64,000 nt of DNA from Pelosinus sp. UFO1 (GTDB lineage: Bacteria; Bacillota; Negativicutes; DSM-13327). Location: NCBI RefSeq assembly GCF_000725345.1, contig NZ_CP008852.1, positions 372,001 to 436,000 of the forward strand, written 5' to 3'. Both the position numbers and the translations under genes were made by a program. The notes under the pieces are model-generated. The model was not told where the DNA came from. It saw only the letters and a program-made list of their open reading frames with translations, and ran no database searches. Positions 25,951-47,146 of the stretch are shown piece after piece. The first letter of the stretch is position 1, and each line of letters begins with the position of its first letter.

Positions 25951-25970
25951 GGGGACGGTTCTATTGAGTT
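25951..25970 (+). repeat. REP-like half-site beside the transposase
   Basis: GGGGACGGTTCTATTGAGTT, 42 bp before the transposase start, occurs again on the opposite strand at about 30824-30842. This is the relation expected of a REP-associated transposase and its substrate repeat. Confidence 0.65.
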
Positions 25971-26011: not shown

Positions 26012-26773
26012 ATGTCCAGGCAAGCGCGTCAAAAGAGTCAAAGCGGTATATATCACATTATTTTACGCGGGATTAACAAGCAAATACTATTTGAAGAAGA
26101 GGAAGATAAAGAAAAATTCATTGAGTGTTTGCGATTTTATAAAGAGAGTAGCAACTACATAATATATGGGTATTGCCTAATGGACAATCATATCCACTTA
26201 CTTATTAAGGAAGGCAAAGAGTCCATTGGGAACACCATGAAGAGAATTGGTGTAAGCTATGTATCCTGGTATAATCGTAAATATGATAGAAGTGGTCATT
26301 TATTCCAAGATCGCTTTAAAAGTGAAGTAGTGGAAGATGATGAGTATTTACTGACCGTTTTACGCTATATTCATCAGAATCCATTAAAGTCGGGTAATGT
26401 AAAACAGTTAGAAAAATATAAGTGGAGTAGCTACGAGGAATATTTAAGTCAACCGAAGACCGTTGATACAGATCTTATATTAAAGATTTTTGCCTCGAAA
26501 AAAGAACAGGCAATGATCTATTTTAAAAACTTTATGAATGAGCAAAATGATGATACGTGCATTGATAGCATTGAGACGAAAAGAATGACGGATCAAGAGA
26601 TAAAAGAACTAATAAAAGAATATGCAAATGTTAATTCACCTAGTGAGTTAAGAAATATGGATATACTGGCAAGAAATCAAGTAATAAGAAAAATAAAGGA
26701 AGTCGAAGGGGTATCTACTCGCCAAATAGCAAGGCTTATAGGAATTAGTCAAAGTATAGTCTCAAAAGCCTAA
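26012..26773 (+). CDS. REP-associated tyrosine transposase (Y1_Tnp, TnpA_REP)
   Basis: 253 residues. The HUH motif NHIHLLI (His60 and His62) and a Tyr-bearing helix in SYVSWYNRKYDRSGHLFQ mark a single-strand Y1 transposase. The start SRQARQKSQSGIYHIILRG is typical of the REP-associated branch. A C-terminal HTH (RQIARLIGISQSIVSK) is present. These proteins cut and join REP-type hairpins and are usually single-copy and domesticated. A REP-like half-site lies just upstream and a full palindrome at 30798-30844. No IS-type ends are visible. Confidence 0.88.
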   Translation: MSRQARQKSQSGIYHIILRGINKQILFEEEEDKEKFIECLRFYKESSNYIIYGYCLMDNHIHLLIKEGKESIGNTMKRIGVSYVSWYNRKYDRSGHLFQDRFKSEVVEDDEYLLTVLRYIHQNPLKSGNVKQLEKYKWSSYEEYLSQPKTVDTDLILKIFASKKEQAMIYFKNFMNEQNDDTCIDSIETKRMTDQEIKELIKEYANVNSPSELRNMDILARNQVIRKIKEVEGVSTRQIARLIGISQSIVSKA

Positions 26774-29236: not shown

Positions 29237-30490
29237 ATGAAAAAAAATGTTTTAATTGTAGGTGCTGGGGGAGTGGCTCATGTAGTTGCTCATAAATGCG
29301 CGATGAACAACGATGTCTTGGGAGATATATGCATAGCTTCTCGGACCCAGCAAAAATGTGAGGCAATAATTGAAAGCATATTGCGCAAAAATAGCTTAAA
29401 AGATGTGACCAAGAAACTATATTCACGAGAAGTGGATGCGATGGATATTCCGTCTTTAGTAACTTTAATCAAAGAAACTAAGTCCGAGATTGTCATCAAT
29501 GTGGGGCAATCCTATATCAACATGTCCGTTTTGGAAGCTTGCATAGAAGCTGGCGTAGTATATATGGATACAGCAATCCATGAGGATCCAGATAAAGTTT
29601 GCGAAAATCCACCTTGGTATGCCAATCATGAATGGAAACGCAAAGAACGTTGTGCTGAAAAAGGAATTACTGCAATTTTAGGTATTGGTTTTGATCCTGG
29701 CGTAGTAAATGCATGGTGTGCTTTGGCGCAAAAGGAATATTTCGACACCATCGACACCATTGATATATTAGATGTAAATGCTGGCAGTCATGGTAAGTAT
29801 TTTGCTACTAATTTTGACCCTGAGATTAACTTTCGGGAGTTTAAGAAAGTATGGACATGGATTGAACGGAAATGGGTGTTGCAAGATGTTCACTCTATAA
29901 AAGTAGACTATGATTTTCCCGTAGTAGGAGAATGTCCAGTATACCTAACTGGACATGATGAATTACATTCTTTGTCTAAAAATATCGATGCTAATTCGAT
30001 TCGCTTTTGGATGGGATTTGGCGAACATTATTTGAATGTATTTTCTGTTTTGACTAATATTGGACTTACCTCTGAAAAACCAGTAGAAATAGCAGAGGGT
30101 GTAGAGATTGCACCCCTTAAGGTATTAAAGGCCTTATTACCAGATCCATCCTCCCTAGCACCTGGCTATACTGGTAAAACTTGTATCGGTAATTTTATCA
30201 AAGGTACAAAGGATAATCAAAAAAGAGAAATCTTCATCTATAATACTTGTGATCATGCTGAATGCTACGAGGAAGTAGAGTCCCAAGCAATTAGTTATAC
30301 CGCAGGTGTACCACCAGTAGCGGCAGCAATTTTGGTAGCCCGTGGTGAATGGGATGTAAACCATATGGTGAATGTTGAAGAATTGGATCCAAGACCTTTT
30401 ATTGACCTGTTAAATACAATGGGGTTACCTACAGAAGTTGTTGAAAATCCAATTACCTTTACATCACCAGTCATTGAATCATTAGAGTAG
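29237..30490 (+). CDS. Carboxynorspermidine/carboxyspermidine dehydrogenase (saccharopine-dehydrogenase family)
   Basis: 417 residues. An NAD(P)-binding Rossmann motif, LIVGAGGVAHVVAHKCA, lies at residues 6-22, and the family stretch GITAILGIGFDPGVVNAWC around 142-160. It condenses aspartate semialdehyde with a diamine to carboxy(nor)spermidine, the substrate of the upstream decarboxylase. In Vibrio the corresponding order is dehydrogenase then nspC; here it is reversed. The strong AAGGGAGG site supports the start. Repeat B copy 1 begins right at its stop. Confidence 0.9.
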   Translation: MKKNVLIVGAGGVAHVVAHKCAMNNDVLGDICIASRTQQKCEAIIESILRKNSLKDVTKKLYSREVDAMDIPSLVTLIKETKSEIVINVGQSYINMSVLEACIEAGVVYMDTAIHEDPDKVCENPPWYANHEWKRKERCAEKGITAILGIGFDPGVVNAWCALAQKEYFDTIDTIDILDVNAGSHGKYFATNFDPEINFREFKKVWTWIERKWVLQDVHSIKVDYDFPVVGECPVYLTGHDELHSLSKNIDANSIRFWMGFGEHYLNVFSVLTNIGLTSEKPVEIAEGVEIAPLKVLKALLPDPSSLAPGYTGKTCIGNFIKGTKDNQKREIFIYNTCDHAECYEEVESQAISYTAGVPPVAAAILVARGEWDVNHMVNVEELDPRPFIDLLNTMGLPTEVVENPITFTSPVIESLE

Positions 30491-30725
30491 TTTATCCGAT
30501 GACTAAACCGCTCCAAGACTCCATCTTCATCTCGTTAACAGCCTGTAATATCCTGCCCTCTGGTTAGGATAACAGTCTGTAAAACTCGAAGTAAGTTCGC
30601 TCTAAGGATCTTCGAATCCAAGGCTCACTTATATAAGTGGGAGTTAAGAGCGGCTAAGTCCCTGGATAAGAAGGGCTAAGATTCAGATGGAGTTAAAACT
30701 CCATCTGAATCAAGTCTTCTTTATA
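30491..30725 (+). repeat. Intergenic repeat family B, copy 1
   Basis: About 235 bp, nearly identical to 46912-47146 with about eight differences. Inner parts include TATCCT/AGGATA and CACTTATATAAGTG hairpins and several CTAAG endings. It finishes with a 15-bp stem, GATTCAGATGGAGTT/AACTCCATCTGAATC, and AAGTCTTCTTTA. It lies immediately after the dehydrogenase gene. No open frame of note. Confidence 0.85.
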
Positions 30726-30797: not shown

Positions 30798-30844
30798 AAG
30801 GGACGGTTTCGCTGGGTTAGAGAAACTCAATAGAACCGTCCCCT
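30798..30844. repeat. REP-like palindrome
   Basis: AAGGGACGGTT and AACCGTCCCCTT flank a 24-nt centre containing AACTCAATAG. The right half is the reverse complement of the 25951-25970 half-site next to the REP-associated transposase, suggesting a substrate element of that enzyme. Confidence 0.7.
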
Positions 30845-30888
30845 TGAGTTTCAATAGCTTTGTAAGTGGCTCCTGGTGTTTTATCAAT

Positions 30889-46911: not shown

Positions 46912-47146
46912 TTTATCCGATGACTAAACCGCTCTAAGACTCCCATCTTCATCTCGTTAACAGCCTGTAATATCCTGCCCTCTGGTTAGGATAACAGTCT
47001 GTAAACTCGAAGTAAGTTCGCTCTAAGGATTTTCGAATCCAAGGCTCACTTATATAAGTGGGAGTTAAGAGCGGCTAAGTCCCTGGATAAGTGCGACTAA
47101 GATTCAGACGGAGTTAAAACTCCATCTGAATCAAGTCTTCTTTATA
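46912..47146 (+). repeat. Intergenic repeat family B, copy 2
   Basis: 235 bp matching 30491-30725. Here the terminal stem is GATTCAGACGGAGTT/AACTCCATCTGAATC with one wobble pair, and the motif before it is TAAGTGCGACTAAG, closer to that of family A. It ends 26 bp before the MFS start codon, so it probably lies in that gene's promoter or leader. Confidence 0.85.

Follow-up and report, generated by a model that had tools for sequence, protein, structure and literature searches.

To our knowledge, no mobilizing enzyme has been identified for small folded repeats such as bcr1, and the TTTAT sequences that lie on both sides of such repeats have been taken as a target repeat. The bcr1 element, as described by Okstad in 2004, reportedly has TTTAT at each end and a stable fold. 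IS200/IS605 elements have a guide at the 5' base of an end hairpin that pairs with the cleavage site, its published position being the left end, and in some members insertion is biased to the lagging-strand template; the Helitron/IS91 rolling-circle elements insert without duplication and have a hairpin near the 3' end. The repeat of Pelosinus sp. UFO1 analyzed here is a real, widespread, mobile, and gene-free element, a variant of the bcr1/PATE kind of repeat (PATEs are ends-only derivatives of IS200/IS605 elements), whose mode of insertion can be read directly from empty sites. Judged by description, bcr1 of the Bacillus cereus group (group A, bcr1–bcr3) appears to be its nearest described analogue, being small, noncoding, present in high copy number, mobile, and linked to TTTAT (PMC6542083, PMC3446304); the Pelosinus element is likewise flanked by TTTAT at each end, mobile, and chromosomal. 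No sequence relation between the two was seen in a comparison that covered plasmids and exact left-end matches in 84,980 species (no Bacillus). Identity with bcr1 itself was considered and dropped, because the 16S at contig position 1, of Negativicutes type on inspection, and the named left-end matches identify the host as a Pelosinus, and bcr1 was kept as an analogue.

The window, the whole stretch of 64,000 nucleotides that was analyzed, corresponds to positions 372001–436000 of a single 5,115,410-base contig (a 5.1-Mb genome). It contains two copies of the repeat on the + strand, at 30491–30724 and 46912–47145, whose features are listed in Table 1. A sequence-only reading had recognized both copies and their common strand and put their identity at ~95%, which compares with 96% here; its length of 235 bp placed the end one base too far, each copy having 234 bp including the left pentamer. 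The paired indels to which it drew attention are real, with copy 1 lacking a C near element position 31 and copy 2 an A near position 93, so that both have 234 bp. Copy 1 does adjoin a stop codon, the TAG (30488–30490) of a saccharopine-dehydrogenase-like gene, and the earliest possible start of an MFS transporter gene lies 6 bp beyond the end of copy 2. The description of an intergenic multi-hairpin repeat without terminal inverted repeats of the MITE type was correct. The genome-wide search that the same reading recommended places the pair in a family with at least ~40 copies in the Pelosinus sp. UFO1 genome, a count that includes further short copies and is a lower bound, both searches having scored part of the candidates. 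The repeat cannot be recognized as a fragment of a known transposon, which that reading had named as a contrary outcome, and far from lacking conservation the repeat family is conserved across genomes.

Table 1. Positions within the window of the two repeat copies and of the RAYT-type gene
Feature	Position	Strand	Basis
Copy 2, left TTTAT, insertion target (host sequence)	46912..46916	+	Varies among copies while right end is fixed; equals the empty-site pentamer at two non-TTTAT sites
Copy 2, element proper, CCGATGAC...TTCTTTAT, 229 bp	46917..47145	+	Flanks unrelated directly outside; absent at the G006 site
Copy 2, internal module, 103 bp, 0–4 per copy	46951..47053	+	Number differs at orthologous sites; stand-alone module relative in locus L068
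Copy 2, module hairpin GGATT-TTCG-AATCC	47027..47040	+	Covaries with GGGTC-TCCG-GACCC; UNCG tetraloop is kept
Copy 2, GGATAAG, candidate guide (putative function)	47085..47091	+	Pairs with TTTAT/CC over the left junction in predicted folds; bases involved nearly constant among 19 diverse copies
Copy 2, right-end hairpin, GACTAAGATTCAG...CTGAATCAAGTC	47095..47137	+	Six covarying pairs; best-conserved part across genomes
Copy 2, right-end TTTAT, element-borne	47141..47145	+	TTTAT in 128/140 copies; never matches the left pentamer where that deviates
Copy 1, left TTTAT target, adjoining the preceding TAG stop	30491..30495	+	Exact empty site AGAGTAG-TTTAT-AGTGAT in relative G006
Copy 1, element proper, 229 bp	30496..30724	+	Copy alignment, unrelated flanks, empty site in G006
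RAYT-type Y1 (IS200-like) protein gene, 253 aa; weak mobilizer candidate	26012..26773	+	Sole Y1 gene detected in genome; flanked by the different repeat GGGACGGTTC, not by the hairpin element

Joined flanks were searched for within the genus, and orthologous sites were then read in a close relative, G006 (23 sites). About 10 of the 23 are empty, and at the clean ones the flanks meet at a single pentamer; the element is therefore mobile. The relative lacks the element at the site of copy 1, with the join given in Table 1, and also at that of copy 2, where divergence of the flank makes the exact join unreadable. At two sites the empty pentamer is CTTAT or TCTAT; in the filled copies it is retained on the left, and the right pentamer is TTTAT. 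Insertion at the TCTAT site has apparently converted the TAG stop codon of the opposing gene to TAA. Of 140 copies, 28 have a deviant left pentamer (nearly always NTTAT) and 12 a deviant right one; the two spectra differ, and in no copy does one deviant pentamer occur at both ends. The left pentamer is thus the old target and the right TTTAT is the element's own, and target duplication is excluded as a general rule by the CTTAT and TCTAT sites together with the absence of mirrored deviants. These sites show that the element inserts directly 3' of NTTAT, mostly TTTAT, leaving the order target, element, and original right flank. This mode of insertion matches that described for IS200/IS605 elements (PMC7290912).

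The same evidence bears on the view that the repeat is a MITE of an ordinary cut-and-paste transposon that duplicates a TTTAT target. Most copies have TTTAT on both sides, and for the analogue bcr1 both an association with a TTTAT motif and a classification among MITEs have been published (PMC6542083, PMC3446304, PMC3733652). However, the right side is still TTTAT where the target is CTTAT or TCTAT, deviant left pentamers are mirrored on the right in 0 of 28 cases, and the element differs from MITEs in having neither terminal inverted repeats nor target duplication. The empty sites largely refute this view, to which we give hardly any weight.

The repeat folds strongly both as RNA (−88.4 kcal/mol versus −51.2 ± 4.5 kcal/mol for shuffled sequences, z −8.4) and as DNA (z −7.9 versus shuffles). 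The 235-bp form consists of a 132-bp core, which includes both pentamers, and a 103-bp module, and outside the left and right TTTAT the flanks of different copies are unrelated. In the predicted fold, pairing of TTTATCC with GGATAAG is part of a large structure on the left of the core, and the right end of the core forms a hairpin of 18 pairs that stops eight bases before the 3' end. Terminal inverted repeats are absent; subterminal hairpins are present. In 19 diverse copies, 95% of the cells pair and ten pairs are changed on both sides, versus 4.5 in shuffles; it should be noted that this alignment was built without structure but that the structure was partly derived from the same sequences, which favors the percentage paired and makes the double changes the better evidence. 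The covariation signal is lost when the structure is slid along the alignment, and the GGATAA-TTATCC pairing is nearly invariant. A search of Rfam with the repeat gave no match to any curated model. The linker at the right end and the bases that follow GGATA covary by lineage; pairing between them was sought and none was found. Variant elements at three loci (L070, L075, and L064), which lack the right-end hairpin or have another inner hairpin (CCCCTACGGGG, CAGGCGAGCGG), represent further subfamilies.

Individual copies have none, one, two, or four modules. At orthologous sites of the Pelosinus sp. UFO1 genome and G006, the numbers are 1 versus 0, 4 versus 2, 1 versus 2, and 2 versus 1, and the module therefore changes in place; it is a passenger sequence that gains and loses tandem units and behaves like a variable-number repeat. 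The existence of a stand-alone relative of the module (locus L068) and of a hybrid of a module half with the right end (locus L067) suggests that it probably arose as a separate repeat that became nested into the core. The stem of its inner hairpin is either GGATT/AATCC or GGGTC/GACCC (37 and 8 copies), and the loop stays TTCG or TCCG; this constancy of a UNCG loop over a changing stem hints at selection as RNA.

With a covariance model and strict filters, the family was detected in 54 of 300 sampled Negativicutes genomes, representing 30 of 97 genera. The exact left-end pattern, searched in 84,980 species, has matches in Pelosinus (including Pelosinus fermentans JBW45), several Sporomusa, Syntrophomonas, Desulfosporosinus, and other Bacillota, and in several groups of anaerobic Bacillota there are dozens of copies per genome. 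Collections of plasmids, phages, and viral contigs searched with the repeat gave no match, and no described repeat in the carrier genera was found in the open-access literature. Copies listed in the Pelosinus sp. UFO1 genome become sparser toward the terminus (KS p 0.0015), and the stretch at 1.49–2.85 Mb around the replication terminus has no copy among the matches listed. A replication-strand bias was sought and is absent, 17 of 40 copies being in the leading orientation (p 0.43), although old copies may blur such a bias; the element differs in this respect from some IS200/IS605 members. Insertion at the stop codon of an opposing gene is enriched in the Pelosinus sp. UFO1 genome (9/39 versus 4.9%, p 9e-5), an enrichment that was not confirmed in other genomes (7/68 versus 5.9%, p 0.12). 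In Pelosinus sp. UFO1, the right-end TTTAT provides the stop codon (TAA) of the opposing gene at one site (L019) and at eight others. At three loci (L194, L284, and L306) adjacent copies lie head-to-tail, the pair at L194 having one TTTAT in common, an arrangement suggestive of insertion of one element at the end of its neighbor.

Neighboring gene arrangements in the Pelosinus sp. UFO1 genome are mixed, with 11 co-directional in each sense, 11 convergent, and 5 divergent, which is consistent with an element tolerated away from promoters. There is nothing specific in favor of a regulatory role of copy 2 in the leader of the MFS gene, since copies occur in all gene arrangements and the MFS site is empty in G006. 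More generally, a regulatory or structural RNA kept by the host, for example one acting in untranslated regions, might be expected to have a stable and conserved fold and to keep an RNA-type UNCG tetraloop in its module hairpin despite changes in the stem, as is seen here, but its sites would not be expected to differ even in a very close relative, its neighbor genes and orientations to be mixed, or Rfam to hold no match. We regard such a host-kept RNA as highly improbable, although the element might nevertheless be transcribed or have acquired a secondary use. Its spread can be accounted for without any cellular function.

The reading that we favor, and consider probable, is that of a non-autonomous mobile DNA element, inserted 3' of NTTAT and carrying its own 3' TTTAT, that is moved as a folded single strand by an HUH-type enzyme acting in trans. 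According to this model, an HUH-type (Y1-like) enzyme would cut and join the strand, the internal conserved GGATAA would act as a guide by pairing with the target TTAT and the first CC of the element, and possibly also with the terminal TTTAT, and the right-end hairpin would be the docking site of the enzyme. The element resembles IS200/IS605 and PATEs in that it lacks inverted repeats, does not duplicate its target, inserts 3' of a pentanucleotide, and has hairpins at its ends and a plausible guide. It differs from IS200/IS605 in its large extra left structure and in the location of the candidate guide, which is 3' of that structure and 5' of the right hairpin and would pair with the left target. 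Site-specific recombination of a circular form with NTTAT sites, catalyzed by a tyrosine or serine recombinase and with the pentamer as the crossover segment, would also account for one host-derived and one element-derived pentamer, and a mechanism like site-specific recombination has been proposed for bcr elements (PMC6542083). However, recombination predicts that the host-derived pentamer is on a random side, whereas it is consistently on the left; such a reaction does not require a strong fold with covarying stems, and the element has no long core site. We therefore consider recombination unlikely.

Profile searches of the Pelosinus sp. UFO1 genome gave no match to PF07282 (TnpB) or PF04986 (Y2) and a single protein matching PF01797, a RAYT with a different repeat. 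The element thus differs from IS200/IS605, there being no related TnpA or TnpB in its own genome, and also from the Helitron/IS91 elements, which it resembles in the absence of duplication and in a hairpin near the 3' end; there is no Y2 transposase in the genome and the end motifs of the element are different. Of six carriers searched for TnpB, five gave no match; a search for copies that enclose a transposase gene revealed none; and the IS200-type loci of relatives have ends that differ from those of the hairpin element, which, unlike a PATE, does not have its ends in common with any autonomous tnpA/tnpB element found. In one genome (G025), an IS200 fragment near a right-end-like hairpin is a degraded Y1 fragment beside a weak match to the element, and the association was taken as chance. 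The mobilizer may be of a new kind, may have been lost, or may come from a family outside those searched.

No Y1 protein other than the RAYT encoded in the window was detected in the genome, and this RAYT could move the hairpin element as well as its own GGGACGGTTC repeats. The element resembles REP sequences in being folded, high-copy, and intergenic, and in that most genomes carrying it have a Y1 enzyme; in 60 genomes, with RAYT type assigned by eye from length and score, a RAYT-type protein was present in 24 of 25 repeat carriers versus 5 of 35 non-carriers (Fisher p 1e-10, not corrected for kinship). However, this correlation may only mirror large-genome families. Desulfosporosinus sp. PR has many copies of the element without a RAYT, its only Y1 sequence being a sub-threshold fragment of 36 aa. 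At RAYT loci, the element is within ~1.5 kb in 0 of 40, whereas GGGACGG-type sequences are in 24 of 40; the element is, moreover, much larger than a REP and of other sequence, and the RAYT has its own GGGACGGTTC palindromes. Judged by co-occurrence and proximity, the RAYT is an unlikely partner, and we give little credence to its moving both repeats.

A GGGACGGTTC palindrome lies ~60 bp upstream of the RAYT gene, and related palindromes are present in the window at 25952 and 30800–30845. There are 65 GGGACGGTTC sequences in the genome, ~55 of them within some 230 kb (3509524–3741883), mostly on the + strand and at a spacing of 1–3 kb; this stretch, part of which was read and contains duplicated paralogous genes and ordinary genes, is a dense, largely one-way REP cluster.

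Going further, and only tentatively, the element may represent a new transposition system, in which a gene-free folded element uses one internal guide, GGATAA, for NTTAT and perhaps for its own TTTAT end, is served by an enzyme that belongs to none of the TnpA, TnpB-linked, and Y2 families, and has spread over Negativicutes, Syntrophomonas, and Desulfosporosinus; this broader proposal is possible but doubtful. The empty sites, in identifying the left TTTAT alone as the target, narrow the mechanism and provide a testable candidate guide sequence. They concern a single repeat family that crosses class borders among the anaerobic Bacillota and has an internal module that acts like a variable-number repeat.
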